Shown piece by piece: positions 6,590 to 21,479 of a stretch of 22,889 bases of DNA (its first letter is position 1; each line of letters starts with the position of its first letter). A program made the translations under genes and the position numbers. Source of the stretch: Candidatus Tectimicrobiota bacterium (GTDB taxonomy: Bacteria > JACPSX01); NCBI GenBank assembly GCA_016193065.1, contig JACPSX010000166.1, positions 1 through 22,889 on the forward strand, given 5' to 3'. The notes below the pieces were generated by a model that did not search any database, was not told where the DNA came from, and worked only from the letters and a program-made list of their open reading frames with translations.

Positions 6590-6791
6590 GCGCTTTTCCC
6601 CCGACGACCAGCTAATGCCGTTCCAGCTATTTTGCCCTAAGACAGCAGGCAACGTGCCGGGCCAAGGAACGAGCATAACGAGGCGCGAGCCCCGAGCTGA
6701 CCGAGGCGTACTGAGGGAGTACGCCGCAGGGAGAGCGAGGGATCGCGCCCAGAGGGCACCCGGAAGTTAGGCGAAGTTAATTGGACCGGCA
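6590..6791. repeat. Convergent gap with a large imperfect hairpin (6682-6749)
   Basis: This gap separates the + strand MFS gene from the - strand TPR gene. It holds a 68-base imperfect palindrome. The outer arms GGCGCGA (6682-6688) and TCGCGCC (6743-6749) match exactly, and the inner stem GGCGTACT (6705-6712) / AGTACGCC (6718-6725) is perfect with a GAGGG loop. The arms are rich in GAGC/CGAG. It could act as a bidirectional terminator or be a dispersed structured repeat. There is no T-run. Confidence 0.6.
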
Positions 6792-7262
6792 CTAATTCAT
6801 CATCCCTTGCAATCTAGCAAGGTGAATAGCGGCCAACTTGTAGCCGGGCTCGATTTCCAGCGCTTTGCGGAATTCCGCGGTCGCTTCTAGATATTTGTGC
6901 TGGAGGAGGTAGATGCGCCCCAGGTTGCAATGGGGGTAATGATAGGCCTCGTAGTTCTTGGCCGTCATGGCCTGCTTGAGATATGGGATGGCTTCCTCCA
7001 GGCGTCCTTGCTGGATGTAGTAAGCCCCGATGTCGTTCCACGGGTTGCCGAATTCAGGGTCCAGTTCGATGGCCTGAAAGCACCGCTTGATGGCTTCTTC
7101 CAGATTGCCCTGGTGGCTGTAGGCCCACCCCAGGAAGGTGTAGGCCTGGGCGCTGGGCTCGATTTCGAGCGACTTCTTGTAAAGATCAATCGCCTCCTCG
7201 ATCTCACCCCTTATGTGGAACTCGTAAGCGTCCTCCAGATATTCTCTGGCCAGCGGATTCAT
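6792..7262 (-). CDS. Tetratricopeptide repeat protein
   Basis: A 156-residue protein made almost wholly of TPR units, about four in tandem: residues 5-38, 39-72 (AYTFLGWAYSHQGNLEEAIK), 73-106 (PWNDIGAYYIQQGRLEEAIP) and 110-143 (HCNLGRIYLLQHKYLEATAE). TPRs are helical protein-protein interaction modules; there is no signal peptide or membrane segment, so it is probably cytoplasmic. The frame is open upstream to 7448, but ATG 7262 has a purine-rich ribosome-binding site (GAGAGGGGG) and the upstream part translates the intergenic repeat into low-complexity sequence and overlaps the CPBP gene. The partner is unknown. Confidence 0.9.
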   Translation of the reverse strand: MNPLAREYLEDAYEFHIRGEIEEAIDLYKKSLEIEPSAQAYTFLGWAYSHQGNLEEAIKRCFQAIELDPEFGNPWNDIGAYYIQQGRLEEAIPYLKQAMTAKNYEAYHYPHCNLGRIYLLQHKYLEATAEFRKALEIEPGYKLAAIHLARLQGMMN

Positions 7263-7320
7263 ATGGATCCCCCTCTCCACGTTCCCTCGATTGTTTATAG
7301 CGGTTCGGCCGCCCGAAGAC

Positions 7321-7420
7321 AAGGGTCGCTGCGGAACACCCGCGGGGCGGGTACCCGGAAGCGAAAGGCGGGGGGCAGTCCCCTTGCTATAGATTCCCAA
7401 AGAGAGGGGGATGGGCAAGG
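7321..7420 (+). repeat. Dispersed repeat copy D (3' module) with nested GGGTACCC hairpin
   Basis: Lies between the TPR and CPBP genes. From AAGGGTCGCTGCGG to GATGGGCAAGG it matches 22253-22336 and the reverse complement of 8144-8222. Where those copies read GAGGCGTGAAGCGAA, this one carries an extra hairpin, ACCCGC (7338-7343) / GCGGGT (7347-7352), running into CGGGTACCCG (7348-7357), so a mini-hairpin appears to have been inserted into an older repeat. Confidence 0.6.
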
Positions 7421-7431
7421 GGAGTCGGGGA

Positions 7432-8067
7432 TTAGCGGATGGGAGCAACGAGGAGGATCAGGAGGTCCCACAGGCTGTGGGAAATAATCCCGGGAATGAC
7501 TGAGCCGTATCGTAGGTAAACGAGTCCCCAGAAAAGCCCCGCCAGCAGGGCCGCCATGGCGAGCATGAAATTGCCCGAGAGAGCGTGCAGCGCTCCGTAA
7601 ATGACTGTGGCGGAGAGCCACCCCTGCCAGGGACCCAGGCGCTGAGCCAGCGTTCTCTGCACAAAGCCCTTCCAGAAGATCTCTTCGGCGGGACCGATGA
7701 CGGCGGCCAGCAGCAGGCCGACAATCAGGGGTGAGCCGCCCCCCAAGGTTTCATAGATCGTTCCGACCTGCCCCGTGGCGAACGGAAGAATCCAGCCCGA
7801 GACCAGGTGCCCGGTCCAAAAAATTCCGTACAGGACCAGGGCCGAAAGGATTCCGATGGGGACAAACGAGGTCTTCCAGTGGAAGATCTCTGCCAAGTTC
7901 TTGCGGTTCCAGACCAGGGAACAAACGGCCAGAGTGCTGCTGGCCACGCTCATTTCGAGCCAGAAGTTCAGGGGCTTCCAGCGGAAAATGATCCACCAGA
8001 AGACCAGGGCCAGGCTCAGCGCGGCGACCACCCTGGGGTCGAGTTTGGTGGCAACCTTTGTCTCCAT
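7432..8067 (-). CDS. CPBP-family intramembrane metalloprotease (CAAX/Rce1-like)
   Basis: A 211-residue membrane protein with about six to seven hydrophobic segments. The three CPBP motifs are present: the glutamate pair E128-E129 in PAEEIFWKGF (EExxxK in place of the usual EExxxR), YGALH with H161 (motif 2), and SHSLWD with H197 (HxxxD, motif 3). Members of this family cleave within membranes; bacterial ones act in bacteriocin immunity, protein maturation or have unknown roles. The R-to-K change is conservative. ATG 8067 has GGAAAGG upstream, and a good promoter lies at 8097-8125. The neighbours give no hint of its substrate. Confidence 0.88.
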   Translation of the reverse strand: METKVATKLDPRVVAALSLALVFWWIIFRWKPLNFWLEMSVASSTLAVCSLVWNRKNLAEIFHWKTSFVPIGILSALVLYGIFWTGHLVSGWILPFATGQVGTIYETLGGGSPLIVGLLLAAVIGPAEEIFWKGFVQRTLAQRLGPWQGWLSATVIYGALHALSGNFMLAMAALLAGLFWGLVYLRYGSVIPGIISHSLWDLLILLVAPIR

Positions 8068-8096
8068 CTTTGCCCTTTCCTTGGCAACGGCGGGTC

Positions 8097-8125
8097 ATTC
8101 TAAACAAGGCGCCTGGTGGGGTCAA
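8097..8125 (-). promoter_or_regulatory. Sigma-70-type promoter for the CPBP gene
   Basis: Read on the - strand, TTGACC (8120-8125) is followed by a 17-base spacer and TAGAAT (8097-8102), five of six matches in each box at ideal spacing. It lies about 30 bases before the CPBP start codon at 8067, and fits that gene and perhaps the TPR gene after it. Confidence 0.6.
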
Positions 8126-8143
8126 CGATAATGGTGCATCTTG

Positions 8144-8453
8144 CACCCACCCCCATCTTGTGAATCCATAGCGAGGGGACTGCCTCCTGCCCTTCGCTTC
8201 ACGCCTCCCGCAGCGACCCTTTTCGGGGCGCCGGGTACCCATTCTATGGGTGCGGGACCCCTCCGCTACCGCCACGTTAAGTGCTCAGCTATCTGCAAGC
8301 ATATGCTCCGCAGGGCGACTTGGCCCTAGCCCGAAATTCTCCGCTGGCGTCGTCCCGCACGGGCCTGCGGGTGGCGCCGGGGAAGCCTCCGCAGAGCCGC
8401 GCGAAAGTGGGACCCTCGTCAGGGTGACGGAGCGCGGATCGAGGAGGCAACCC
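8144..8453 (-). repeat. Dispersed repeat copy B (inverted relative to copy C)
   Basis: The gap 8068-8575 contains no gene. Bases 8354-8453, reverse-complemented, match 22003-22102 at 97 of 100 positions without gaps; all three differences are C/T transitions. Bases 8144-8222 match the 3' module of copy C (22253-22336) in the same inverted sense. The middle (8223-8353) differs between copies and contains a mini-hairpin at 8231-8254. It is a non-coding dispersed element, perhaps a MITE-like or structured RNA element; no clear terminal inverted repeats were found. Confidence 0.75.
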
Positions 8454-8521
8454 GGGTACCCGCCGGGCGGGTGTCAGGACCCGCGGGCCAACAGTACCGG
8501 GTACCCGCAGAGCGGGTGCCC
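8454..8521. repeat. Two GGGTACCC hairpins in tandem
   Basis: Two copies of one small hairpin: GGGTACCCGC (8454-8463) facing GCGGGTGTC (8467-8475), and GGGTACCCGC (8499-8508) facing GCGGGTGCCC (8512-8521) with a 3-base loop and a single T-G wobble. Related hairpins are at 7338-7357, 8231-8254, 10412-10441 and 21897 onward. Confidence 0.65.
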
Positions 8522-8575
8522 AAGGGCGCCCCGGTCCCTCTTTTCTCTGAAGCTGCAAAAACTGATGGACGCGGG

Positions 8576-8995
8576 CTAGTAGTGGTGCAGCAGCCAATAG
8601 ACGACCCAGCCGGTGCCCGCCACGTAAAGCCAGATGGGCAGCGCCACGCGGGCGATGCGCTTGTGACGGGCAAAGTCCGAACGCAGAGCCCGGAATAGAG
8701 CCAGCAGGACCAGGGGAACCAGCGTGATCGCCAGCACGCTGTGGGATCCCAGGATCGCCAGGTAAAGAAGGCGGACTGCCCCCTGGCCACGGAAGGGAGT
8801 GGTGGCGGCCAGGGCCCAACGGGTGAGGTAAACGATCAGGAATGAGGCGGCCAGGGTCGCGGCGCCCATCATGCAGAGCTTGTGGCGGGGCACGTTGTGG
8901 CGGCGGATGAAGGCAAAGCCGAGAAGGGCGAGAAGGCCGCTGCCCAGGATCAGCACGGCGCCCAGGGCCGGGAGAGTTTCGATGAGCGCGGTCAT
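8576..8995 (-). CDS. DUF420 (CtaM-like) membrane protein, probable oxidase assembly factor
   Basis: A 139-residue membrane protein with four hydrophobic segments and the histidine pattern of the DUF420 family: H38 in PRHKLCM, H85 in GSHSVLA, H111 in ARHKRIAR and the terminal LLHHY after PIWLYVAGTGWVVYW. DUF420 includes CtaM, needed for assembly of haem-copper oxidases in Bacillota; the exact role here is inferred. It begins 10 bases after ctaB ends and is the last gene of the ctaA-ctaB operon, which supports a role in maturing the oxidase encoded at 17106-21479. Confidence 0.85.
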   Translation of the reverse strand: MTALIETLPALGAVLILGSGLLALLGFAFIRRHNVPRHKLCMMGAATLAASFLIVYLTRWALAATTPFRGQGAVRLLYLAILGSHSVLAITLVPLVLLALFRALRSDFARHKRIARVALPIWLYVAGTGWVVYWLLHHY

Positions 8996-9005
8996 GGCCT
9001 CTTGT

Positions 9006-9872
9006 TCAGGGGTTGGAGTCCAGAATCATGGCCAGGAAAAGCAGTCCCATGTAAGGAATCGAATACGCGAAGAGACGGCGGGCGGGGAGGCCGCTTTCTG
9101 TTTTCCGTAGCACCGCGATGGACAACCCGAGGAAGATCAGGCCCAGCACGGCCGCGCTGACCAGATAAAGAAGGCCCGCCGCCCGCAAAGGGTAGAGCAG
9201 CAGCGTGGCCAAGATCAGAGTGGAGGTGTATATGAGGATCTGGCGCTTGGTTCGGGTTTCCCCCCAGGCTACGCTGGCGATGGGAATGCCGGCCCGGGCG
9301 TAGTCCGCCTTCCGGTACAGCGTGAGCGCCCAGAAGTGAGGGGGCTGCCAGAGAAACAGGATCGCGAACAGAACGACCGCCACGACGCCCACATCTCCGG
9401 TGACCGCAGCCCAGCCGATGACCGGAGGCACGGCCCCCGGAACCCCCCCGATCACCGTGCACAACGGCGTGGAGCGTTTAAGCCAGGCGGTGTAGACCCC
9501 CACGTAAAATAAGATGGCCCCCAGGGCGAGCACGGCGCTGAGCAGGTTCACCCGCCAGGCCAGCAGCACAAAGGAAAGCACGCCCAGGCCGATGCCGAAC
9601 AGGAGGGCGTGATCGGGGCGTATGCGCCCGGTTGGCAGGGGGCGGCGGTTGGTGCGGCTCATCAACGCATCGATGTCACGGTCCACGTAGCCGTTGAGCA
9701 CGGCGGCCGAAGCGGAAGCCAGTGCCGTTCCCAGGAGCGTGGCCAGCACCAGTCCCGCCGGGCCAGGTCCGGAACTGGCCATCCAGATCCCCCCGAGCGT
9801 GGTCAAGATGACCAGGGCGTTGATCTCGGGCTTGGTCATCGCGTAGTAGTCTTTTAGAATTTGCGCTTTCAA
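9006..9872 (-). CDS. ctaB: Protoheme IX farnesyltransferase (haem O synthase)
   Basis: CtaB/CyoE attaches a farnesyl group to haem b to make haem O, the precursor of haem A, in the inner membrane. The 288-residue product has about nine hydrophobic segments and both prenyltransferase motifs: NGYVDRDIDALMSRTNRRPL (N60, D64 and D68 are the Mg-diphosphate-binding residues) and the second loop YTAWLKRSTPLCTVIGGVPG. The start MKAQILKDYYAMTKPEI is typical of the family. It follows ctaA by 28 bases and precedes the DUF420 gene by 10, giving a haem A operon divergent from the respiratory genes. Confidence 0.97.
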   Translation of the reverse strand: MKAQILKDYYAMTKPEINALVILTTLGGIWMASSGPGPAGLVLATLLGTALASASAAVLNGYVDRDIDALMSRTNRRPLPTGRIRPDHALLFGIGLGVLSFVLLAWRVNLLSAVLALGAILFYVGVYTAWLKRSTPLCTVIGGVPGAVPPVIGWAAVTGDVGVVAVVLFAILFLWQPPHFWALTLYRKADYARAGIPIASVAWGETRTKRQILIYTSTLILATLLLYPLRAAGLLYLVSAAVLGLIFLGLSIAVLRKTESGLPARRLFAYSIPYMGLLFLAMILDSNP

Positions 9873-9900
9873 TGCCGGGTCTCTCAGGGGAGTGCCCTCC

Positions 9901-10854
9901 TCAGATTGATTGCTGTTCTAAAACCAGCACTGGCGGTTTTAAGACGGCAGGCCTCAAGCATGCCGCGGAAAGGAAGACCATGGTGGCCAGGAGCGCCTCC
10001 GCATTGGCCAGATGAAGGACGGTCAAGAGCGGAGCAAGTCGGGAAGAGACCGCCAGTGCGCCCAGAAGGATCTGCACTCCGACCAGAACGGTGGCCACTG
10101 TGGGCAGCACGCTCAAAAACGGCTGCTCTCTGAGCGCGTCTCGCGCGCGCACCGCGGCCAGAAAAATCAACACTGCGACCAGGATGGCTCCGACACGGTG
10201 GCTGAAGTGGAAGACGGTCAGACCCTGCAGTGGAGGGATCACCTCGCCTTGACAGAGAGGGAGATCCGGGCAGGCCAAGCCGGCGCCGCTGTGGCGGACA
10301 TAGGCGCCCAGGATCATCTCCAGGTAAAGTACCCCCGTGGCCGCCAGGGGCCAGAACGGCGGGGGCCGCCCCGGGTCGACTTCCAGCGCGCTGAAATCGC
10401 GGGCTGGCACCCCGGGTACCCTCTGGGTGACGGGTACCCGGCTCAGAATCAGCATAAGGGCCAGAATGACCAGGAGAGCGCTGCCCAGAGCCAGGTGCGC
10501 CGTGACGATTTCGACGGGGAGTTCCCCCAGCACGGTGACGGCTCCCAGGAGAACCTGGGCCAGCAACAGAAACAAAGCAACTCCCGCCGCAGCCCCGACT
10601 CCTGGGATCCGGCGGCGTCTGCGCCAGGCTGTCACGGCGGTGCTGAGAACCAGCAGACCCACCAGGGCTGCCAGGACCCTGTGGCCGTATTCAATGAGGA
10701 CGGGGCCTTCGAGAGGCGGAATCAGTTGTCCTCGACAGAGAGGCCAGTCCGGGCAAGCCAGACCGGAGCCCGTGGCGCTCACGATGCCCCCCACCACCAG
10801 CAGGAGATAGGTCGACGCCAGGCTGATCCAGGAAAGCCGTTCCAGTGTCTTCAT
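9901..10854 (-). CDS. ctaA: Haem A synthase (COX15/CtaA family)
   Basis: CtaA oxidises the C8 methyl of haem O to a formyl group, making haem A. The 317-residue product has eight hydrophobic segments in two homologous halves. Each half carries a cysteine pair, CPDWPLC (C34, C40) and CPDLPLC (C195, C201), and the haem-ligand histidines: H58 in IEYGHR, H120, H219 in HFSHR and H281. E55 matches the catalytic glutamate near the first histidine. The loop between the halves (about 138-165) is extended, and residues 138-152 are encoded by a perfect GGGTACCC-type hairpin (10412-10441), as if a repeat had been absorbed in frame. The ribosome-binding site is weak. Divergent from the bd-like operon. Confidence 0.96.
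   Translation of the reverse strand: MKTLERLSWISLASTYLLLVVGGIVSATGSGLACPDWPLCRGQLIPPLEGPVLIEYGHRVLAALVGLLVLSTAVTAWRRRRRIPGVGAAAGVALFLLLAQVLLGAVTVLGELPVEIVTAHLALGSALLVILALMLILSRVPVTQRVPGVPARDFSALEVDPGRPPPFWPLAATGVLYLEMILGAYVRHSGAGLACPDLPLCQGEVIPPLQGLTVFHFSHRVGAILVAVLIFLAAVRARDALREQPFLSVLPTVATVLVGVQILLGALAVSSRLAPLLTVLHLANAEALLATMVFLSAACLRPAVLKPPVLVLEQQSI
10412..10441. repeat. GGGTACCC hairpin inside ctaA
   Basis: CCGGGTACCC (10412-10421) pairs perfectly with GGGTACCCGG (10432-10441) over a 10-base loop. It encodes part of the inter-domain loop of CtaA (RVPVTQRVPG). The same core recurs in the intergenic repeats at 7348, 8233, 8454, 8499 and 21897. Confidence 0.7.
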
Positions 10855-11023
10855 GAGCTTTACTGGCGCGGGTCTCCTCGCCTGTTCAAAAAAAGACAGG
10901 GTGAAACCCGGCCGCTCTCTCCCGCCCCGCCTGCGTACGTGCGGGATGGGACTGTTTCACTGCTTTATCTGCGCAGACCGCATAAAAAATTGAGGAGGTG
11001 GTGAACGATGCTGCAACTGCCAC

Positions 11024-11051
11024 TTGCATTCCCCCTCGCGCAGATTATAAT
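11024..11051 (+). promoter_or_regulatory. Sigma-70 promoter for the bd-like/cytochrome c operon
   Basis: TTGCAT (11024-11029), a 16-base spacer, then a perfect TATAAT (11046-11051). It lies in the 291-base divergent gap between ctaA and the CydA-like gene, leaving a leader of about 90 bases before the GTG at 11146. The gap also holds an ORF-free ribosome-binding-like sequence (AGGAGGTG, 10993-11000). I see no ctaA promoter of equal quality. Confidence 0.6.
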
Positions 11052-11145
11052 AGGTCACGTTTGCGTGTCCGTCCACCCGTATTTGCACATTTTTGGGCAA
11101 ACCAATTAGGGACCATAGCTCGGGAGGTACTGTGACGAGGCTTCC

Positions 11146-12858
11146 GTGGTGACCCGGCAGAGGGATGCTCGGTTCCATTTCTTCCTCTTTGCCGCGGCGA
11201 TTCTCGCCCTCTTGTCCGCCGCTCCCGCCCTGGCCCAGGAGGCCGGCAAGGAGGTCGCCTACCGGGCCTTCCCCCTCATAGGCTCCCGCCTAGCAGTCTG
11301 GGCGGTAGCTCAAATTCATCTCAATTTTGCCGCTTTTATCCTCGGTGTCCCCGTCTTTGCCGTCATCATCGAAATCATGGGCTGGCGCACCAGTACTGCC
11401 CTGTTGGGCGGCCTGTTCCTCTTTATCCTGGTCGGTTTTTACCCCAAGTTCTGGTCGTACATGAGCGGCATTTTTTACTCAACCTTCTGGGTGTACGGGA
11501 TCCTTTTTTTCCTGGAGACCTTCACGGTTTACCTCTGGTACTACGGGTGGGAGTGGCTCAGCGGAGCGAAGAAGTGGATCCACGTTTGCCTCGGGGTCCT
11601 TTCGAACCTCTTTGGTACCGCGATCCTCTTCGTGGCCAATGCCTGGGTTACTTTTATGGTTTCTCCCGGAGGGATTGACGAGGCGGGAAATTTAAAAAGT
11701 CTCTGGGGGGCCATTAACAACTTCACCTGGATGCCCATCAACATTCATAGAATCATCGCCAATATTGTTTTTGGAGGCACCATTGCGGCCGCTTACGCGG
11801 CTTTCCGTTTCCTGTCGGCCAGCTCCGATGAGGAGCGGGCCCGTTACGACTGGATGGGGTACATCGGCAACTTCGTGGCGATCTCCGCCTTCATCGTGCT
11901 CCCCTTCGCCGGCTACTGGCTGGGACGCGAAATCTACGCATTTAATCAGACCATGGGCATCACCATGATGGGCGGGTTCCTTTCCTGGCTCTGGATCATC
12001 CAGGCGATCCTGATCGGCGTGCTCTTCATCGGCTCCAACTACTACCTCTGGCTGGGAATGGAGCGGATCCCCGGATCTGAGCGCTACCGCAAGTACATCC
12101 CGTACCTCCTCATGGTGATCGCCGCGGGGTTCATCGTGTGGGCGACTCCCAGAAGCATGGTCATTACCCTTCAGGAAGCGCGCGCTATGGGGGGAACCCA
12201 CCATCCGCTGCTCGGCCTCCTGGGCGTCATGTCCGCCAAGAACACCGCGGTGAACCTCATGATCCTCACCACGTTCCTGTCGTTCCTGCTCTACCGCCGC
12301 GCCAACCGGATCTCCACCAAGCCCTGGGTCGGCACTGGCATGGCCGCCCAGTGGGCGACTTTCGGGCTGGCGGCGGCCGTCGTCACCTTTTTCGGAGTCT
12401 ACGGATACTTCGTGGAATCCATCGTGCGCATCGGCTTCTCGGTTTACCAGGTACTGTCCGTGCTGGGGGCTATCGTGCTCGTCATGGCTATCGATATCCC
12501 CATGTTTCGGGGTGCCAGGTCCACCGGGACCATCCGCTGGGGCCAGATTGCCCCGCGCTCCCAATATATATTGATCCTGCTGGCCGTGACCTTTACATGG
12601 CTTATGGGTCTCATGGGCTTTGCCCGCTCCGCGATTCGACAGCACTGGCATGTTTACGGCGTGATCCGCGACACTTCCCCTGATGCGGTAACCCCCGCCT
12701 TGGGATACGCAGCAAACGTGATCACGTTGGTTACTATTGTCTTCCTTTTACTCGTGATGTTCATCTTTTGGCTGGGCGGCCTTGGTGAGAAGGGGAAGGA
12801 GAAAACCCACGGAGCGGTTGCCCCGGCTGTCGCCGCTGGTTCCGGGGATCGGAAATAG
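11146..12858 (+). CDS. Cytochrome bd-like oxidase subunit I homologue (CydA-like)
   Basis: A 570-residue membrane protein with an N-terminal signal-like segment (possible cleavage after ALA, about residue 30) and many membrane helices. CydA signatures remain: QIHLNF with H58 (high-spin haem ligand position), ANAW...SPGG (164-175, like ANxWM..PxG), FFLETF with E124 (like E. coli E107) in a stretch ending YGW, and NIHR with H201 (haem b558 ligand position). The quinol-loop signature GRQPW has become IRQHW (497-501), and the glutamate of AIEGL (E. coli E99) appears as Y117. It is thus a divergent bd-like protein, as described from Nitrospira, rather than a classical oxidase; no CydB gene follows. 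Start is GTG 11146 (GAGG five bases before). The next gene begins at the very next base. Confidence 0.85.
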   Translation: MVTRQRDARFHFFLFAAAILALLSAAPALAQEAGKEVAYRAFPLIGSRLAVWAVAQIHLNFAAFILGVPVFAVIIEIMGWRTSTALLGGLFLFILVGFYPKFWSYMSGIFYSTFWVYGILFFLETFTVYLWYYGWEWLSGAKKWIHVCLGVLSNLFGTAILFVANAWVTFMVSPGGIDEAGNLKSLWGAINNFTWMPINIHRIIANIVFGGTIAAAYAAFRFLSASSDEERARYDWMGYIGNFVAISAFIVLPFAGYWLGREIYAFNQTMGITMMGGFLSWLWIIQAILIGVLFIGSNYYLWLGMERIPGSERYRKYIPYLLMVIAAGFIVWATPRSMVITLQEARAMGGTHHPLLGLLGVMSAKNTAVNLMILTTFLSFLLYRRANRISTKPWVGTGMAAQWATFGLAAAVVTFFGVYGYFVESIVRIGFSVYQVLSVLGAIVLVMAIDIPMFRGARSTGTIRWGQIAPRSQYILILLAVTFTWLMGLMGFARSAIRQHWHVYGVIRDTSPDAVTPALGYAANVITLVTIVFLLLVMFIFWLGGLGEKGKEKTHGAVAPAVAAGSGDRK

Positions 12859-13698
12859 ATGCGCCTGCCAATCGTTGTAAAAATCAGTGTGTTTGCCCTG
12901 GCTGTAATGGGGGTGTACACATACTATGCGAACTCCATCCCCCAGATTCAGTCCAAGCCCCCCGAGGAGCTCTCCCTGGAAGGAGGGAACGTGACTCAGG
13001 AGCAGCTCATCAAGGCGGGTGAGGAGATCTTCAAAGGGAAAGGTACCTGCGAGGTCTGCCATCGGATCGGCCAGGCAGGGGCGCGGGCTCCGGATCTGGC
13101 CGGCATGGGAGCGCGGGCGGTCAAACGGAAGCCCGGTCTTAGCGCGAAAGCCTACCTGATTGAGTCTCTCCTGGACCCCGGGGTTTACCTGGTGGAAGGG
13201 TATCCCAACATCATGCCCAAGGTAGACAAGCCCCCCATTGCTCTAAACCGCTCCGAACTGTGGGCCGTCACGGCCTTCCTGGAGTCCCTGGGTGGCACGG
13301 TGGACGTGGCGCTGGACGACATCCCGAAATCTGCAGGGGCCGGCGCCGCGGGTGGGGGAGCTCAGGTGGCGGAGCTGAAGCTGCCGGGCGACCCCAAGGC
13401 CGGGCAAGCAGTCTTTACTGGCAAGGGGGCTTGCGTGGCCTGCCATAAGGCTGGTTCCATAGGTGCTTCTCCCGTGGGGCCTGACCTCTCACAGATCGCT
13501 AGGATCCAGACACCTGATTACATTATGGCGAAGATTCTCGACCCGGCCGCAATGGGGACTGTGGCTGGATTTCCTCCCAAGGTAATGCCCCAGACGATTG
13601 GCCAGACCCTCACCGCGAAAGAGTACGTGGATCTCGTGTCGTTTCTCCTGACCCTCAAGGGCAGCAGCGCTACTCCGGCCCCGCAGGGCAAAAAGTAA
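12859..13698 (+). CDS. Membrane-anchored dihaem cytochrome c
   Basis: A 279-residue protein with one N-terminal membrane segment (about 7-24) that is a signal anchor or uncleaved signal, then two cytochrome c domains in the periplasm. Haem motifs are CEVCH (64-68) and CVACH (192-196); likely axial methionines are M119 in NIMPKV and M243 in KVMPQT. The two domains look like an internal duplication (each has a KG-C-x2-CH start and an IMP or VMP segment followed by a helix with LVSFL/VTAFL). The start codon directly abuts the stop of the CydA-like gene and the following cytochrome starts three bases after its stop, so the three are translationally linked and probably form one complex. Electron transfer is expected; the partner is inferred. 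Confidence 0.93.
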   Translation: MRLPIVVKISVFALAVMGVYTYYANSIPQIQSKPPEELSLEGGNVTQEQLIKAGEEIFKGKGTCEVCHRIGQAGARAPDLAGMGARAVKRKPGLSAKAYLIESLLDPGVYLVEGYPNIMPKVDKPPIALNRSELWAVTAFLESLGGTVDVALDDIPKSAGAGAAGGGAQVAELKLPGDPKAGQAVFTGKGACVACHKAGSIGASPVGPDLSQIARIQTPDYIMAKILDPAAMGTVAGFPPKVMPQTIGQTLTAKEYVDLVSFLLTLKGSSATPAPQGKK

Positions 13699-13701
13699 TT
13701 T

Positions 13702-15891
13702 ATGATTCGATCGAAGTTTTTCCAAGCAATTCTCGTTCTGGTTTTGGCTTTTGCGTTTTTCCGCTATGGGATCCGCCCGCCGGCCCCTTGGAGCGTGGTC
13801 TACCTGTACATGGGCATCGTGCTTCTGGCAGTCTTGGTCTACATCTCCTCGGACTCGGATTCCTGGCGGGCCTTCCTGCGACCCATCCATTTGGTTCTGG
13901 TCGATGACGAGAAGCGTCCCATCCGGCTGCTGCTCATGGTTCTCTTGCCTCTCTTTCTAGGGTACTACGCATACTCCCAGGCTGCCGCCAAGGTGGAGGC
14001 TCCTCCCGAGCTGCGGGCGGTTCACCCTGCACCCGCTTCGTCCATTTCTTTCCGCGGGAAGACAATTGACGTCCAGGGGTTCGAGAATCCCCTCCGGAAG
14101 GACGCTGCCAACCTCCGGAAGTACGTGGACGAAGGAGGGGAGATTTACGTTAAGAACTGCATGTTCTGTCACGGCGACAACTTGGACGGCGAGGGGCCAT
14201 TTGCCCACGCTTTTAGCCCTCCCCCGGCCATTTTTACCGACCCAGGCACCATTGCCATGCTCCAGGAGGCATACCTGTTCTGGCGGATCGCGAAAGGGGG
14301 ACCGGGCTGGCCAAAAGAGTCCACCCCATGGAATTCGGTCATGCCGGCCTGGGAGGATCGCCTGACGGAGGAGGATATCTGGAAGGTCATCATGTACCTT
14401 TATGACGCCACTGGATTCCAACCCCGTCGCTGGGAGGCAAATGCTGCACTGATTCCCTTTCCCTCCCAGGGGGAGAGTGCGGGGAAAGCTGTGGCCGCTC
14501 GGGTACCCTCGTCTTCCCTCCGTTCCCGGCGAGCGGAAAGGGGGCTGTGGAGTCCCGCCCTGGCAGAAGCGCAGCAGAGGGGGGACATGAATGCAGGCAA
14601 GGCAGTCTACGGAAAGAAGTGCGCCATTTGTCACGGGGAAAAGGGAGATGGGAACGGACCTGGAGCGTCCGACTTAGTCATCACAGCGCGGATGCCAGGA
14701 ACCTCCATGCCTCCCTGGAAGGGGCTTCCGGAAAAAGACCGCTGGAATCTGGTGGCGTACATAAAGACTTTTACCCCGGACTTGTTTAAGGGGACGCCGA
14801 AGGTGTTGGATCTCCCGAAGGAAGTCCCGCCTTCCAAAGAGTCTATCGTTCGTGGGAAAGAAATGTACGAGGCCATCGAGTGCAACAAGTGCCACGGCCG
14901 TGCGGGCCGGGCAGATGGACCCTCGGCTCCGGAACTCAAGGATGATTGGGAGCAGCCGATCCGTCCGGCCGATCTGACCAAACCCTGGAACTTCCGCGGC
15001 GGTGAAAGTAAGAAAGAAATCGCTACCCGTCTGGCCACTGGTCTCGCGGGCACTCCGATGCCAAGCTTCCTGGACAGCGTGGAGAAGCCCGAGGACATCT
15101 GGCACCTGGCAAATTACGTCAAGTCTCTGGCGCCGGACAAACCCAACTATGCCACCTTCCTAAGGGTGAAAAAAGTGGAGGGGGAAATTCCCGCTGATCC
15201 CGGTGCGCCGTTCTGGAGTCAGCAGGCCCCGTCCAATTTTCCCTTGGCGGGGCAGGTGATCGTGGACATGAGGAATTTCAACCCGTCCATTGACATGATC
15301 ACAGTGAAGGCGGTTTATTCTAGCCGGGAAATTGCAATTCATCTGACCTGGAATGATCCCACAGGCTCCCGACCGGACCCGGCCGCAAAGACCTTTGCCG
15401 ATCAGGTGGTCCTCCAGTTTCCGGTCAAGCTTTCCGAGGGCAACGAGCGTCCCTATGTCCTCATGGGCGATGGCTCGAACCCGGTCTACCTTCTGCGCTG
15501 GAGTAGCGATGGCGGAGTGGGGGAGGCCAACGCCACAGCAATCAGCAATCTCACCCCGCAGCCCGCTCAGGCAGTGGAGGCGAAAGGGACGGGGGTTTTT
15601 GCGGACGGCCAATATCGCCTCGTGATCAAGCGCCCCTTGCAGACGCCCGATCCTAACGATCTGCAGTTTCCGGTGGGTAAATTCTTTCCAGTTGCCTTCA
15701 TGGCCTGGGACGGCGGGGCCGGGGAGACCGGAAGTGACATGTCCTTTTCTTCGTGGTATTATTCCGTACTTGAAGAGCCAAGCTCGAAACGACCGTATGT
15801 GATTCCGCCCGTGGTGGTCCTTGTGTCCGTGGCAGCGGAGCTCTTGATCGTTCGCCGCGCGCAACGGAAGGCCCGGGGGAGCGTGAATTAA
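13702..15891 (+). CDS. Trihaem cytochrome c fused to an ethylbenzene-dehydrogenase-type haem b domain
   Basis: A 729-residue fusion. Three N-terminal hydrophobic segments lie at about 7-23, 31-48 and 75-92. Three cytochrome c units follow: CMFCH (153-157), CAICH (307-311) and CNKCH (394-398), with candidate axial methionines M214, M336 and M453. Residues about 494-690 resemble the haem b domain of ethylbenzene dehydrogenase gamma-type subunits (ADQVVLQFP, YVLMGDGSNPVYLLRW, FMAWDGG); M588 and K643 are candidate haem b ligands. A C-terminal membrane helix (about 699-717) follows. The linker 250-295 is basic, low in conservation, and encoded by GC-rich palindromic DNA. Third gene of a tight operon with the CydA-like and dihaem proteins; likely the electron-exit arm of that complex (inference). 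Confidence 0.9.
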   Translation: MIRSKFFQAILVLVLAFAFFRYGIRPPAPWSVVYLYMGIVLLAVLVYISSDSDSWRAFLRPIHLVLVDDEKRPIRLLLMVLLPLFLGYYAYSQAAAKVEAPPELRAVHPAPASSISFRGKTIDVQGFENPLRKDAANLRKYVDEGGEIYVKNCMFCHGDNLDGEGPFAHAFSPPPAIFTDPGTIAMLQEAYLFWRIAKGGPGWPKESTPWNSVMPAWEDRLTEEDIWKVIMYLYDATGFQPRRWEANAALIPFPSQGESAGKAVAARVPSSSLRSRRAERGLWSPALAEAQQRGDMNAGKAVYGKKCAICHGEKGDGNGPGASDLVITARMPGTSMPPWKGLPEKDRWNLVAYIKTFTPDLFKGTPKVLDLPKEVPPSKESIVRGKEMYEAIECNKCHGRAGRADGPSAPELKDDWEQPIRPADLTKPWNFRGGESKKEIATRLATGLAGTPMPSFLDSVEKPEDIWHLANYVKSLAPDKPNYATFLRVKKVEGEIPADPGAPFWSQQAPSNFPLAGQVIVDMRNFNPSIDMITVKAVYSSREIAIHLTWNDPTGSRPDPAAKTFADQVVLQFPVKLSEGNERPYVLMGDGSNPVYLLRWSSDGGVGEANATAISNLTPQPAQAVEAKGTGVFADGQYRLVIKRPLQTPDPNDLQFPVGKFFPVAFMAWDGGAGETGSDMSFSSWYYSVLEEPSSKRPYVIPPVVVLVSVAAELLIVRRAQRKARGSVN
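14455..14542. repeat. GC-rich palindromic insert in the trihaem cytochrome linker
   Basis: CCCTTTCC (14455-14462) is the exact reverse complement of GGAAAGGG (14535-14542). Between them are a CTCCC/GGGAG hairpin and CGGGTACCC. The segment codes for an Arg/Ser-rich linker unlike its flanking cytochrome domains, which suggests an absorbed repeat. Confidence 0.4.
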
Positions 15892-15905
15892 GGAGGAACA
15901 GGTCA

Positions 15906-16622
15906 ATGCAACGAGTGCTCAGGTGGTTTTTCATTGCTGGTGTTCTGGCATTGTCGCTTCCTTTCTTGGCGGGAATCTCCCCGGAAGTGAACGCGCAGAG
16001 CAGTGGAAGCATTGTTGGGGAAGTGAAGTACAACGGAACCCCACCCGCCCCGAAGGTGATCAAGGTGAACAAGGACAACCAGGCTTGCGGGAATGAGAAG
16101 ACCTCTGAGGAACTGGTGGTCGGGGCGAACAAGGGGATCCAGTGGGCCGTGGTGTCCGTAGTAGGGGCCAAGGGTCCGGCGCCGAAGCCTGCTCAGAAGC
16201 CGACTCTGGATCAGAAAGGATGTCACTTCCAGCCCCACGTCCTGCTGGCGCCGGTCGGGGTCGGGATCGATATCCTGAACTCCGACGGGATCCTCCACAA
16301 TATCCACACGTTCTCGAAGGCCAACCCTTCCTTTAACAAGGCCCAGCCGAAATTCAAGAAGGTAATTACCGAGAAGTTTGACAAACCCGAGGTCGTCAAG
16401 ATCCGGTGCGACGCCCATAGCTGGATGTCCGGATGGGTCGTGGTCCAGGAGCACCCCTTCTATGCGGTAAGCGATGCGAATGGGTCGTTCAAAATCGACA
16501 ACGTCCCGCCCGGAAAGCACAAGCTCGAGTTGTGGCACGAGACTCTGGGCAAAGTCGCGAAGGACGTCGAGGTCAAGGCGGGCGCTCCAACCAAAGTTAC
16601 CTTTGAGCTGACCAAGAAATAA
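15906..16622 (+). CDS. Exported cupredoxin-like protein with carboxypeptidase-regulatory-like tail
   Basis: A 238-residue protein with a clear signal peptide (RWFFIAGVLALSLPFLAG, cleavage likely near VNA-Q31), so periplasmic. The middle has a cupredoxin-like pattern: ILHNIH (H131, H134) and RCDAHSWM (C168, H171, M174), candidates for a type 1 copper site. The C-terminal part (about 185-238; YAVSDANGSFKIDNVPPGKH) resembles the carboxypeptidase-regulatory-like beta-sandwich. It is preceded by a strong AGGAGG and lies 14 bases after the trihaem cytochrome gene. By position it may carry electrons between the cytochrome module and the CuA site of the oxidase; a structural role is possible. Copper binding is not proven. 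Confidence 0.82.
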   Translation: MQRVLRWFFIAGVLALSLPFLAGISPEVNAQSSGSIVGEVKYNGTPPAPKVIKVNKDNQACGNEKTSEELVVGANKGIQWAVVSVVGAKGPAPKPAQKPTLDQKGCHFQPHVLLAPVGVGIDILNSDGILHNIHTFSKANPSFNKAQPKFKKVITEKFDKPEVVKIRCDAHSWMSGWVVVQEHPFYAVSDANGSFKIDNVPPGKHKLELWHETLGKVAKDVEVKAGAPTKVTFELTKK

Positions 16623-16665
16623 TTCGGAAGAACCCGACGGGCCGTAGAATCTTGAGGGGGTTGCC

Positions 16666-16863
16666 ATGCGTCTGGTGATATTCCATAAGATCCTGATCGG
16701 GACGGCCGTCCTTTTTGGGCTGGGCTTCTCCGGATGGGAATTCTTAAGCTACAGGCGCACGGGCCATGTGGAGGACCTGGTTATCTCCGTGTCTGCCGTG
16801 ATGATTTCCGCGGCCTTGGGGTACTATCTGAGGAACCTGAAACGGTTTTTGGCGTTGCCTTAA
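16666..16863 (+). CDS. Small two-helix membrane protein, unknown function
   Basis: A 65-residue protein I do not recognise. It has two hydrophobic segments (about 8-26 and 37-55) separated by a short polar loop (SYRRTGHVEDL), and a basic C-terminal tail (RNLKRFLALP). ATG 16666 is preceded by GAGGGGG. It is the last gene of the bd-like/cytochrome operon and sits before the oxidase promoter, so a small accessory subunit or assembly protein of either complex is plausible. Confidence 0.7.
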   Translation: MRLVIFHKILIGTAVLFGLGFSGWEFLSYRRTGHVEDLVISVSAVMISAALGYYLRNLKRFLALP

Positions 16864-17105: not shown

Positions 17106-17765
17106 ATGATGAGCTGGCTTCCGGAAAACGTCTCGTCCTACGGCGGGGCGGTCGATTCTCTATTTTACCTCGTCTACTACATCACCGGTGCAGTGTTTTT
17201 CCTGGTCATGGGGTTAATGATCTTCTTCCTGGTGAAGTACCGCCACCGGGAAGGCCGGCGGGCCAGGTACAGCCACGGGAACAACACGCTGGAGATCCTC
17301 TGGACTGTCGTTCCGGCTCTGATCCTGGTGGTGCTGACGGCATTGAGCGTGCCTACCTGGGCGAAAATCAAGAGTCACATCCCGCCGACCGACCTCACGA
17401 TCCAGGTCATTGGGAAGCAATTTAACTGGGAGGTCACGTACGCCGGTCCGGACGGCAAGTTCGGCACCGAGGACGACAGGACCTTCGACAACGAGATGCA
17501 TGTCCCTGTAAACGCGCCCGTAAAAGTCGTCCTTCTTTCCAAGGACGTGATCCACAGTCTCTTCCTGCCGAACCTCCGTTTCAAGCAGGACGCGGTGCCT
17601 GGACGGGAAATCCCCCAGTGGTTCCAGGCCACCAAGACGGGGAAGTACGTGATCCCGTGCGCGGAGCTCTGCGGGTTCGGGCACTCCGGGATGCAGGGGT
17701 ACCTCTACGTCCACACTGCGCAGGAGTACGAGCAGTGGGTGAAGGAACAGTGGCCCTCATCATGA
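17106..17765 (+). CDS. coxB: Cytochrome c oxidase subunit II (CuA subunit)
   Basis: Subunit II accepts electrons through a dinuclear CuA centre outside the membrane and passes them to haem a. The 219-residue product has two membrane helices (about 19-43 and 62-82) and a cupredoxin domain. All CuA ligands are visible: H150 in DVIHSLFLP and, in CAELCGFGHSGM, C185, E187, C189, H193 and M196. No cytochrome c domain is fused at the C-terminus, so this is not a caa3-type subunit II and needs a separate donor. GAGGGGG precedes the tandem ATGs at 17106/17109. First gene of the oxidase operon. Confidence 0.97.
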   Translation: MMSWLPENVSSYGGAVDSLFYLVYYITGAVFFLVMGLMIFFLVKYRHREGRRARYSHGNNTLEILWTVVPALILVVLTALSVPTWAKIKSHIPPTDLTIQVIGKQFNWEVTYAGPDGKFGTEDDRTFDNEMHVPVNAPVKVVLLSKDVIHSLFLPNLRFKQDAVPGREIPQWFQATKTGKYVIPCAELCGFGHSGMQGYLYVHTAQEYEQWVKEQWPSS

Positions 17766-17798: not shown

Positions 17799-19571
17799 AT
17801 GAGTGACTCGGTAGGGGCAGCAGTGGCTGTGCACGATACCCACACCGGCTATGAGCGTCTGGGCTTCGTGAGGACCTACATCTTTTCCACCGATCACAAG
17901 ATGATCGGACGTCAATTCCTGTTCCTGGGCCTTTTTATGCTGGTCGTCGGCGGCTTTCTGGCCATGTTGATCCGTTGGGAGCTGGGCTGGCCGCAAACGC
18001 CCGTGCCGGGCTTCGGTTGGTTGTTCAAAGATACCGAAGGAGTCATTCCCCCCGAAGCCTACAACATGCTGTTCACCATGCACGCGACTCTTATGATCTT
18101 CTTCGTCGTGATGCCGATCATGGTGGGCTGCTTCGGGAACTTCCTGATCCCACTCATGATCGGAGCCCGCGACATGGCGTTTCCGAAGCTCAATATGCTG
18201 TCGTTCTGGACGGGGGCGGTGGGGGGCGTGATCATGCTGGCGGCCTTCTTCGTCCCCGGCGGCGCCGCGGCGTCCGGCTGGACGGCTTACGCGCCGCTGT
18301 CGGCGGTGACCGAGTACACGGGGGTCGACTGGGGGCAGAACCTGTGGTGCATCAGTCTGTTCGTTCTCGGCATCTCGTCCCTGATGGGAGCCATCAACTA
18401 CATCACGACCGTCATCAACATGCGGGCTCCGGGGATGACGTTGTTCCGGTTGCCGCTGGTGATCTGGTCGCTTTTCATTACGGCCATCCTCTTGCTTTTC
18501 GCCCTGCCCGTGCTCACGTCCGCCGTGGTGATGCTTCTCTTCGACCGCCTGCTGGGGACCCACTGGTTCCTCCCGAAGGGCGGAGGGGAACCACTCCTCT
18601 GGCAGCACCTCTTCTGGTTCTTCGGCCATCCGGAGGTCTACATCCTGGTTCTTCCGGCCATGGGCGTCACTTCCGAGGTTCTGTCCACCTTTTCCCGGAA
18701 GCCGATCTTCGGGTACCGCGCCATGGCCTACTCCATGATCGCCATCGCCTTCCTTTCCTGGATTGTCTGGGGACATCACATGTTCGTGAGCGGGATGAAC
18801 CCGATGATCGGCATGTCCTTCATGCTCTCCACCATGGTGATTGCCGTTCCGTCGGCCATCAAGACGTTTAACTGGCTGGGGACTCTGTGGGGGGGATCGA
18901 TCCGCTTCAAGACGCCGATGCTCCACGCCCTGGGGTTCGTATCGACCTTCGTCATCGGCGGACTCTCGGGCATCTGGATGGCCAACACGCCGGTGGATAT
19001 CTTCATCCACGACACGTACTTCATCGTGGCCCATTTCCATTATGTGGTGGCGGGGATTATTTTTGCCATGTTTGCGTCCGTTACCTACTGGTTCCCGAAG
19101 ATGTTCGGCCGCGTAATGAACGAAATGCTGGGCAAAATACACTTCGTCCTCACTTTCATCTTCTTCAACCTGACCTTCTTCCCCATGCACATCCTGGGCT
19201 TGGGCGGGATGATGAGAAGGATCTACGATCCGACCCAGTACGAGTTCTTGCAGGCGCTGCAGCCGATCAACCATTTCATGTCCATAAGCGCGCTTCTCCT
19301 GGGAGCCTCGCAGATTTTCTTCATCGCCAACTTCTTCTGGAGCCTCTTTGCCGGGAAGAAGGCCGAGGACAACCCCTGGAAGGCGAACACCCTGGAATGG
19401 TCCGCCCCGTCCCCTCCGCCCCACGGCAACTGGGCCGGCTCCCCCCCGACGGTCCATCGGGGTCCTTATGAGTACAGCTCCCCCGAGGTGGAGGAGGACT
19501 ACTTCCCCCAGAATCGTCCCCACCCGGCGTTGACGGGTGCTGGATCTTCAGCGAGAGTGGGAGGTCACTAA
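17799..19571 (+). CDS. coxA: Cytochrome c oxidase subunit I, A1-type haem-copper oxidase
   Basis: The catalytic subunit reduces O2 to water and pumps protons. The 590-residue product has the usual 12 helices and all key residues: haem a ligands H95 (TMHATLM) and H414, haem a3 ligand H412 (AHFHYVV), CuB ligands H277, H326 and H327, and the cross-linked tyrosine Y281 in GHPEVYILVLP. D125 (ARDMAFPKLN), E279 and K355 (PSAIKTFNW) match the D- and K-channel residues, so this is an A1-type enzyme. The C-terminal tail (about 530-590) is long, polar and proline-rich. AAGGAG lies upstream of ATG 17799, 33 bases after coxB. Needs haem A from the ctaA-ctaB operon. Confidence 0.98.
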   Translation: MSDSVGAAVAVHDTHTGYERLGFVRTYIFSTDHKMIGRQFLFLGLFMLVVGGFLAMLIRWELGWPQTPVPGFGWLFKDTEGVIPPEAYNMLFTMHATLMIFFVVMPIMVGCFGNFLIPLMIGARDMAFPKLNMLSFWTGAVGGVIMLAAFFVPGGAAASGWTAYAPLSAVTEYTGVDWGQNLWCISLFVLGISSLMGAINYITTVINMRAPGMTLFRLPLVIWSLFITAILLLFALPVLTSAVVMLLFDRLLGTHWFLPKGGGEPLLWQHLFWFFGHPEVYILVLPAMGVTSEVLSTFSRKPIFGYRAMAYSMIAIAFLSWIVWGHHMFVSGMNPMIGMSFMLSTMVIAVPSAIKTFNWLGTLWGGSIRFKTPMLHALGFVSTFVIGGLSGIWMANTPVDIFIHDTYFIVAHFHYVVAGIIFAMFASVTYWFPKMFGRVMNEMLGKIHFVLTFIFFNLTFFPMHILGLGGMMRRIYDPTQYEFLQALQPINHFMSISALLLGASQIFFIANFFWSLFAGKKAEDNPWKANTLEWSAPSPPPHGNWAGSPPTVHRGPYEYSSPEVEEDYFPQNRPHPALTGAGSSARVGGH

Positions 19572-19804: not shown

Positions 19805-20488
19805 ATGGCTACCGAGACTCGAATTCTGGAAGAGTTGGGAGAAACCAAGGACCTCCTGGACGACGTAGGCGGGGTGCCGCCGCGCTGGCCCCGGGGGGAA
19901 GAAGACGATCGATCCCCTTTTCGGGACTCCGAGCGGGGTTACCCCTCCCGCAATGCCAAACTCGGGATGGCCATGTTCCTGGGGGTGGAGACCATGTTCT
20001 TTGCCGGACTCATTGCCGCCTTCCTTTACTTGCGCCTGAACGCCTCGGAATGGCCTCCGGCCTCTCAGCCCCGTCTTCCAGTATTCGTCACCGGGATCAA
20101 TACGCTGTTGCTCCTGGCCTCGGGCTTCACGATGTGGAGGGTCCAGGGCCCGGCCGCGCGCCAGGACTCGGGGAGGCCGGCCCGAGGGCTGGGGATGACG
20201 TTCCTCCTAGGAACCGTTTTCCTCGTTGTGCAGGGCTACGAGTGGGCGCGACTCGTCCGCTTCGGTCTTACCTTTTCTTCAGGAAGTTACGGGGCGACGT
20301 TTTACACGTTGATCGGGCTCCACGGCCTTCATGTCCTGGGTGCACTCACATGGCTTGCGGCGCTGCAACTGGCCGCAAAGAAGAAGCGCCTTGCTCCGCA
20401 TCACCCGCGCGTGTTTCTGTGCGCGATGTACTGGTACTTCGTGGTGGCCCTATGGCCGGTCCTCTACGGGCTTGTGTATCTGGTGTGA
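19805..20488 (+). CDS. coxC: Cytochrome c oxidase subunit III, first paralogue
   Basis: A 227-residue protein with a hydrophilic N-terminal extension (about 1-50) and five membrane helices. Subunit III family residues include E62 in FLGVETMFFAGL, QGYEWARL (143-150) and GLHGLHVLGA (171-180). The last motif, YWHFVDxxW in canonical subunits, reads YWYFVVALW here, so the conserved His and Asp are missing. Subunit III stabilises the oxidase and supports proton uptake; it has no cofactor. It begins one base after the small ORF and is followed by a second paralogue, so the two may share the role of one classical subunit. Confidence 0.93.
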   Translation: MATETRILEELGETKDLLDDVGGVPPRWPRGEEDDRSPFRDSERGYPSRNAKLGMAMFLGVETMFFAGLIAAFLYLRLNASEWPPASQPRLPVFVTGINTLLLLASGFTMWRVQGPAARQDSGRPARGLGMTFLLGTVFLVVQGYEWARLVRFGLTFSSGSYGATFYTLIGLHGLHVLGALTWLAALQLAAKKKRLAPHHPRVFLCAMYWYFVVALWPVLYGLVYLV

Positions 20489-20518
20489 GGAACAGAGTGT
20501 TTGTGAGGAGAACCTATC

Positions 20519-21142
20519 GTGAGTGACGTGATAACCATTGAGCCGCCCAAGACCATGGAGCAGGCGGAGTCCCCCCTTACCCCGGAGAGCTGGGGGAAGC
20601 TGGGGATGTGGGTCTTCCTGGCAGGGGACGCCATGGGCTTCGGCGTGCTGCTGGCCGGATACGGCGCCATGCGGGCGGCCAGTGCCGACTGGCCCAACCC
20701 TGCCAACCACCTGGGGATTCAGCTCACGGCCTTTATGACCTTCCTGTTGATCTGCAGTTCCGTCACCATGGTGAAGTCCCTGGAATCGATCAAGAAGGGA
20801 TCGCGGAGCCGGATGAAGCTCTTCCTGTTCCTGACCATCCTGGGGGGGGCGACATTCCTGGGGCTGCAGGCTTACGAGTGGACTCATCTGATCGATCGCG
20901 GTCTCAATCTCTACGGGAATCCCTGGGGAGCCTCCCTGTTCGGGACCACCTTTTTCATCATCACGGGATTCCACGGCCTCCACGTGACGGCCGGGGTCAT
21001 TTACCTCTCCTGCATTTTGGCCTATGCGTCGCGCCGCCAGGACCCGGCGCGCAACTACATGCTGGCGGAGATTGCGGGGCTCTACTGGCACTTTGTGGAC
21101 CTGGTGTGGATCATGGTCTTTACATTCGTCTACCTGCTGTGA
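20519..21142 (+). CDS. coxC: Cytochrome c oxidase subunit III, second paralogue
   Basis: A 207-residue protein with five hydrophobic segments. It has LQAYEWTHL (116-124), GFHGLHVTAG (150-159) and a canonical YWHFVDLVW (189-197). The glutamate of the first motif, usually SE, is D37 (FLAGDAMGFG). This pattern is the reverse of the first paralogue, which keeps the Glu but lost the His-Asp. The start is GTG 20519, with GAGGAG about 10 bases upstream, 30 bases after the previous gene. Tandem subunit III-like genes occur in several bacterial oxidase clusters. Confidence 0.93.
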   Translation: MSDVITIEPPKTMEQAESPLTPESWGKLGMWVFLAGDAMGFGVLLAGYGAMRAASADWPNPANHLGIQLTAFMTFLLICSSVTMVKSLESIKKGSRSRMKLFLFLTILGGATFLGLQAYEWTHLIDRGLNLYGNPWGASLFGTTFFIITGFHGLHVTAGVIYLSCILAYASRRQDPARNYMLAEIAGLYWHFVDLVWIMVFTFVYLL

Positions 21143-21161
21143 GGAAAAGACGGGGGAAACG

Positions 21162-21479
21162 ATGGCGGAGCACAAAGACCCAAACTACATGGCGATCTTC
21201 TGGTGGCTGCTGGCCCTGACGATCACTGAACTGGGGGTGATTTTTCTCCCGGCGGCGAGGTGGGTGATTGTCGTCCTGCTCGTGGCGCTGGCGCTCTCCA
21301 AGGCCTCCCTCGTGGCCATGTATTTCATGCACCTGCGGTTCGAGCGCCGCACCCTGAGCTTGATTGCGGTGACCCCGCTTCTGTTGAGCGTCATTGTCTT
21401 GTCCCTTGTCAGTCTGGATCGCTCTCCAGTCCCGCGTCGAACCGTGGACGTGGTGGGGCCTGCACCCTCTGGGCAATGA
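21162..21479 (+). CDS. Cytochrome c oxidase subunit IV (bacterial, CoxD/CtaF-like)
   Basis: A 105-residue protein with three membrane helices and the family signature SKASLVAMYFMHLRFE (about 46-61). It is an accessory subunit of haem-copper oxidases, thought to aid assembly of the CuB site. The frame is open further upstream, but ATG 21162 lies 19 bases after the preceding stop, with GGGGG nearby, and begins a proper N-terminus (MAEHKDPNYM). Last gene of the oxidase operon. Confidence 0.9.
   Translation: MAEHKDPNYMAIFWWLLALTITELGVIFLPAARWVIVVLLVALALSKASLVAMYFMHLRFERRTLSLIAVTPLLLSVIVLSLVSLDRSPVPRRTVDVVGPAPSGQ

Follow-up and report, generated by a model that had tools for sequence, protein, structure and literature searches.

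A conserved CydA-like gene module with c-type haem proteins and a cupredoxin beside an aa3 oxidase: a candidate link between the quinone pool and periplasmic electron carriers

The window analyzed here, meaning the whole stretch of DNA under study, comprises 22,889 nucleotides of contig JACPSX010000166.1 (C57) from a Candidatus Tectimicrobiota bacterium (assembly GCA_016193065.1), a Rokubacteria-type genome of 2.9 Mb in 294 contigs that is 86% complete. Our subject is a module of genes on its plus strand that centers on a divergent relative of CydA, the large subunit of cytochrome bd. Five open reading frames (ORFs) were confirmed between positions 11146 and 16863, separated in order by 0, 3, 14, and 43 bases. 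The first (11146–12858) encodes a CydA-like membrane subunit of 570 amino acids, of a bd-like and OR-N-like type, assigned from a Pfam match (PF01654, E = 4e-9), two alignments (A1 and A2), and profile alignments to solved and canonical CydA. The second (12859–13698) encodes a membrane-anchored dihaem cytochrome c with one N-terminal transmembrane helix (TM), two stretches matching PF00034, and CxxCH motifs at residues 64 and 192. In the product of the third (13702–15891), a trihaem cytochrome c is joined to an EB_dh domain of the NxrC/EbdC gamma type (15205–15738; PF09459, E = 1e-19), as indicated by Pfam, motifs, synteny, topology, and the match to NxrC/EbdC; three N-terminal TMs are followed by CxxCH motifs at residues 153, 307, and 394, the EB_dh domain at residues 502–679, and a C-terminal TM. 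The fourth (15906–16622) encodes a cupredoxin, predicted to be secreted from its signal-like N-terminus, whose type-1 copper ligands (H131, C168, H171, and M174) were kept in 44–46 of 46 homologues. A first-pass annotation made from the sequence alone had described five same-strand genes, the first three almost without gaps, and had given these identities to the first four; Pfam matches, CxxCH motifs, and copper ligands confirm that description. It had also counted the fifth ORF (16666–16863), a small two-TM protein, as part of the module. The ORF exists, but it is missing at this place in other Rokubacteria, where loci such as L004 leave no room between the cupredoxin and coxB, and its few homologues are located near cox genes. 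We rejected it as a module component and regard it as probably a cox-associated gene. No CydB was found beside the CydA-like gene or among the window ORFs, as that annotation had reported (a genome-wide CydB search was not made), and the window genes included no molybdoenzyme, ActA, ActB, NrfD subunit, Rieske protein, or cytochrome b.

Relatives of the module were collected in a single scan of 84,980 species genomes, which found 210; the best 80 were kept, so that the set is skewed to Rokubacteria. A search of the source genome's own phylum returned only the source genome itself. The closest relatives of the CydA-like protein, with up to 85% identity, belong to Rokubacteria and Methylomirabilota. 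Among loci in which 3.5 kb or more of sequence was available downstream (n = 68), the order of CydA-like, cytochrome c, cytochrome c, and EB_dh genes was intact in 68 of 68, across about 17 phyla, a conservation far beyond chance. Most phyla have two genes where the window has its third, namely a monohaem cytochrome c with three TMs and a dihaem c-EB_dh protein, and these are fused in the window, in L003, L008, L023, and L025, and in other loci of the Rokubacteria/NC10 group. A different pair, the CydA-like protein and the dihaem cytochrome, is fused in L035, L040, L041, and L073 (Anammoxibacter, Holophagae, and Sulfidibacter). Two different subunit pairs thus occur as fusions, which suggests that the products form one physical complex. 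Two loci contain the whole module twice, side by side, in tandem in SAR324 (L072:4224–14929) and in divergent orientation in Myxococcota (L036:3406–15507); in each, the CydA-like proteins of the copies belong to different clades. In Calditrichota, Rhodothermota, and Acidobacteriota (L054:14957–21124 and similar loci), genes with PCP_red domains recur downstream of the module, namely one for a radical SAM protein and one for a universal stress protein fusion.

The module corresponds to the bd-like_3/alt_NxrC_2 cluster of Nitrospira (Mundinger 2019), with relatives reported in Nitrospina and anammox bacteria (Lücker 2010, 2013; Mundinger 2019). Three such loci (L128, L130, and L132) have the same order of CydA-like, dihaem c, monohaem c, and dihaem c-EB_dh genes, with cupredoxins nearby and a CydA-like protein about 46% identical to that of the window (A2), and in a tree the CydA-like protein groups with the Nitrospira bd-like proteins. 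The window differs in that its two c-EB genes are fused, its module adjoins an aa3 oxidase and only one cupredoxin, and it lacks nxr genes. A role as an "alternative complex III" was proposed in 2013 for the Nitrospina cluster, which is homologous to clusters in Nitrospira and Kuenenia (PMC3578206). Hence, the model offered in the first-pass annotation, in which quinol is oxidized at the CydA-like subunit and electrons pass through c-haems to CuA, extends a published idea.

The aa3 oxidase follows directly on the plus strand. CoxB (17106–17765), identified by domain and motif search, has an intact CuA motif (CAELCGFGHSGM) and no cytochrome c domain or CxxCH motif, in agreement with the earlier description, and the oxidase would therefore accept electrons from a periplasmic protein. 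Further downstream are CoxA, the haem-copper oxidase subunit I (17799–19571; PF00115, E = 5e-156), a first CoxC-like subunit III (19805–20488; PF00510), a second CoxC-like protein (20519–21142; PF00510, E = 1e-17), and subunit IV (21024–21479; COX4_pro, from a domain search). Two consecutive CoxC-like genes, as at 19805–21142 in the window, were likewise seen in other Rokubacteria loci. Divergent from the module, on the minus strand, lies a CtaA-type haem A synthase gene (9901–10854; PF02628, E = 2e-43). Among the relatives, coxA was located on the same strand no more than 8 kb away in 39 of 58 loci from nine phyla (23/23 in Rokubacteria, 5/5 in Gemmatimonadota, and members of seven other phyla), as against a chance expectation well under 1%, estimated for a genome of about 5 Mb with two to four copies of coxA. 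A haem-copper oxidase was encoded in 33 of 34 module genomes, the exception being an anammox genome without a haem-copper oxidase subunit I.

The CydA-like protein scored above the Pfam cut-off and is the sole PF01654 match in the source genome. In cytochrome bd structures, the low-spin haem is bound by His and Met, a second haem by His and Glu, and the third by a strictly conserved Glu. The window protein has H58, Y117, E124, and H201 at the positions of CydA H19, E99, E107, and H186, respectively. In an alignment of 48 sequences that included all Nitrospira bd-like types (A2), E99 was replaced by Tyr in 48/48 and H186 was kept in 48/48; E107 and R448 were also kept. Profile alignment showed that E445 is lost from the family, with Ser, Ala, or Asn in its place, whereas 29 of 29 canonical CydA proteins from Nitrospirota, used as a control, carried Glu at both E99 and E445. 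The alignment of the family profile to canonical CydA fails past TM6, and an equivalent of M393 was not placed. H19 was kept except in three Holophagae-type members, L040, L041, and L073, where it is Lys; these three belong to the loci with a fusion of CydA-like protein and dihaem cytochrome. In comparison with the quinol oxidase CydAB, the window system thus has the CydA fold and the equivalents of H19, E107, H186, and R448, but differs in the absence of CydB and of the Q-loop quinol residues, in the changes at E99 and E445, in extra helices instead of the Q-loop, and in the attached c-type cytochromes.

Of the three ligands that cytochrome bd uses for its high-spin haems, two are therefore lost, which weakens the case for O2 reduction by this protein. 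The corresponding explanation, which the first-pass annotation had raised as the rival view, is that the module is a cytochrome c-oxidizing O2 reductase of the OR-N family within the cytochrome bd superfamily, in which electrons would enter by the c-haems and O2 would be reduced at the CydA-like haems. Relatives in Nitrospira and Nitrospinota are placed in OR-N as putative terminal oxidases in the literature, and in Nitrospira, which lacks haem-copper oxidases, some bd-like protein must serve that role. Two OR-N traits, the missing quinol site and the linkage to cytochrome c, are present here, with the c-type haem genes tightly linked to the CydA-like gene. Moreover, the Tyr/His pattern (Tyr at E99, Glu at E107, and His at H19 and H186) is common to the Nitrospira group that contains a putative terminal oxidase, so that the change at E99 says little by itself, the argument from ligand loss is not decisive, and the O2-reducing view keeps some weight. 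It is, however, difficult to reconcile with the loss of the strictly conserved Glu ligand E445 together with that of E99, with Lys at H19 in the Holophagae-type members, with the aa3 oxidase that adjoins the module at so many loci, and with the occurrence of the module in an anammox genome without a haem-copper oxidase. A second CydA paralogue (CydAA') is, in addition, thought necessary for such an enzyme, and the source genome has a single PF01654 protein. Taken together, we consider O2 reduction by the module unlikely.

Structural comparison placed the CydA-like protein near CydA. A PDB search with the single CydA-like sequence gave no relative, whereas a profile search did find one. The structure model of the window protein was mediocre, with a predicted local distance difference test score (pLDDT) of 73 and a weak region at residues 78–91. 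This region contains a gap: the window gene is short by 63 bases in frame at 11371–11410, and about 21 amino acids are missing after residue 82, corresponding to the TM1–TM2 loop and the start of TM2 between 'EIMGWRT' and 'STALLGG', which are present in all 35 other homologues aligned with the window protein (A1). The gap could be either a real deletion or an assembly error. Because of the mediocre model, the full-length homologue from L008, 82% identical to the window protein, was modelled instead; this model reached a pLDDT of 86 and has 13 long helices past the signal helix. It matched CydA structures with Z of 29–31. Much weaker, though still ahead of the remaining matches, were ActC and ActF of alternative complex III (ACIII) with Z of 17–19 and the polysulfide reductase NrfD with Z of 15. 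Since helical bundles give a high background, the match to ActC and ActF means only that replacement of ActC would be structurally conceivable.

Such a replacement is suggested by gene order in some relatives. In 11 loci (10 from Acidobacteriota and 1 labelled Myxococcota), the CydA-like gene is immediately preceded by ActB and ActE genes, and ActA was also present in the seven whose contig extends far enough (L052, L043, L051, L055, L069, L076, and L077); in L039, L048, L056, and L078 the contig begins inside ActB. In L052 the order is pentahaem ActA (5406–6050), ActB (6041–9121), ActE (9121–9774), and the CydA-like gene (9755–11671). Across the 11 loci, gene overlaps of 20–30 bp leave no space for an NrfD-type ActC, and no ActC, ActD, or ActF lies between ActA-ActB-ActE and the CydA-like gene in these loci. 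The arrangement looks as if the CydA-like protein had replaced ActC, and a hybrid of ACIII and the bd-like module is possible. No description of ActA-ActB-ActE-CydA operons was found in the literature searched, and they are the new element of this analysis. Related but different layouts are TO_4 with ACIII-like parts in Manganitrophus, and actABCDE followed by OR-N5 CydAA' in Nitrospirales (PMC12342949). The latter also has bd-like proteins beside ACIII genes, but in it ActC is retained, with a pair of short CydA-like proteins after the act genes (L135), whereas the module described here has a single long CydA-like protein with c-haem subunits and, in Acidobacteriota, no ActC. Like ACIII, the module is often near cox genes and combines a membrane subunit built as a helical bundle with a periplasmic arm of several haems; unlike ACIII, the window operon has no ActA, ActB, or NrfD. 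One might go further and see a third, hitherto undescribed type of complex III, with the NrfD subunits of ACIII replaced by a CydA-derived membrane protein that is combined with ActA-ActB-ActE in Acidobacteriota and, in Rokubacteria, Gemmatimonadota, and others, with a c-haem arm of its own, a cupredoxin, and an aa3 oxidase; we hold this to be rather unlikely, if conceivable. The narrower conclusion that the CydA-like protein belongs to an electron-transfer complex is well supported by the fusions and by the pairing with ActA-ActB-ActE, and this part of the quinol-oxidation model stands.

The claim in the first-pass annotation that the complex substitutes for a bc1 complex or ACIII did not survive a search of the whole genome, which returned an outcome named beforehand as refuting it. 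Three Rieske/cytochrome b loci (C210, C148, and C173) and a complete ActABCDEF operon (C34) are encoded outside the window, whose own operon has no bc1/b6f component, and we rejected the module as a substitute for either complex. In the C173 operon (7983–12000; L094), a Rieske protein, a split cytochrome b, and an octahaem cytochrome c occur together, resembling the bc operon of Nitrospina, Kuenenia, and Methylomirabilis. Among the 34 module genomes, cytochrome b was found in 23 and an NrfD-type protein in 33, and the only genome lacking NrfD has four cytochrome b genes, so that each encodes one or the other; NrfD alone is no proof of ACIII, and complete ACIII operons were checked in two genomes, the source genome and Sulfidibacter corallicola. 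The latter, cultured and fully sequenced, has the module beside aa3, a complete ACIII, and no PF00033 cytochrome b.

Our preferred reading, which we judge to have somewhat less than an even chance of being correct, is that the module encodes a complex that transfers electrons between the quinone pool and carriers in the periplasm and supplements complex III. In this view, the EB_dh subunit and the membrane-bound cytochromes c would assemble with the CydA-like protein into a single membrane complex whose c-haems form a wire in the periplasm, and electrons would pass between the quinone pool and one-electron carriers, namely cytochrome c and the type-1 cupredoxin encoded with the module. In the source genome they would go on to CuA of the adjacent aa3 oxidase, which would reduce O2, and the complex would act alongside the bc1-type complexes and ACIII. 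In anammox bacteria and nitrite oxidizers it could run in reverse. The assembly into one complex, the direction of flow, and the cupredoxin as carrier are inferred. The five c-haem motifs and the type-1 copper site offer a plausible route to CuA, in which the EB_dh domain would be the less certain link.

Several observations weigh against this reading. A genome with three Rieske/cytochrome b operons and ACIII would have no need of a further quinol:cytochrome c oxidoreductase. No site is visible for quinol oxidation by the CydA-like subunit, a part of the earlier model that was not borne out: the canonical Q-loop Lys/Glu align with uncharged Thr/Met, after which the extra helices follow, and no quinone site was identified in the Q-loop or elsewhere in the subunit. 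The gap of about 21 amino acids raises doubt about the function of the CydA-like protein in the source strain. The published classification counts OR-N proteins as O2 reductases (PMC10839748, PMC12342949). Finally, the haem b domain proposed in the first-pass annotation is confirmed as an EB_dh domain with the axial Met of EbdC (M588), but the second candidate ligand, Lys in EbdC and NxrC, is M680 in the window, and neither position is conserved among 79 homologues (axial Met in 41, Lys in 5). We rejected EB_dh as a general haem b site, since the axial positions vary across the family; the Met/Met pattern of Rokubacteria may still bind haem.

The missing quinone site would be explained if electrons entered without quinone, from periplasmic donors such as a molybdoenzyme of the dimethyl sulfoxide (DMSO) reductase II type or other cytochromes, and ran through the EB_dh/c-haem wire to aa3, with the CydA-like protein as an anchor that may couple to proton movement. 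EB_dh domains are gamma subunits of molybdoenzymes, and the homologous cluster adjoins nxr genes in Nitrospina, Nitrospira, and Kuenenia (PMC3578206). Outside the nitrite oxidizers, however, no molybdoenzyme gene recurs beside the module, the window has none, and the genome's top match to a type II alpha subunit fell far under the cut-off. The variable EB_dh ligands fit poorly with such an input, and it would be odd for a CydA-derived membrane protein to keep an invariant b558-type His and yet serve only to anchor the wire. We regard a quinone-free complex as quite improbable.

The module is found in at least 17 phyla of bacteria that are for the most part uncultured. It is regularly labelled a cytochrome bd oxidase, which is taken as a sign of low-oxygen respiration. 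The ActA-ActB-ActE-CydA operons and Sulfidibacter corallicola make the question testable. Should the complex indeed connect quinones to cytochromes, as in our preferred reading, these low-oxygen inferences would be wrong, and one more link between quinone and cytochrome c would exist.

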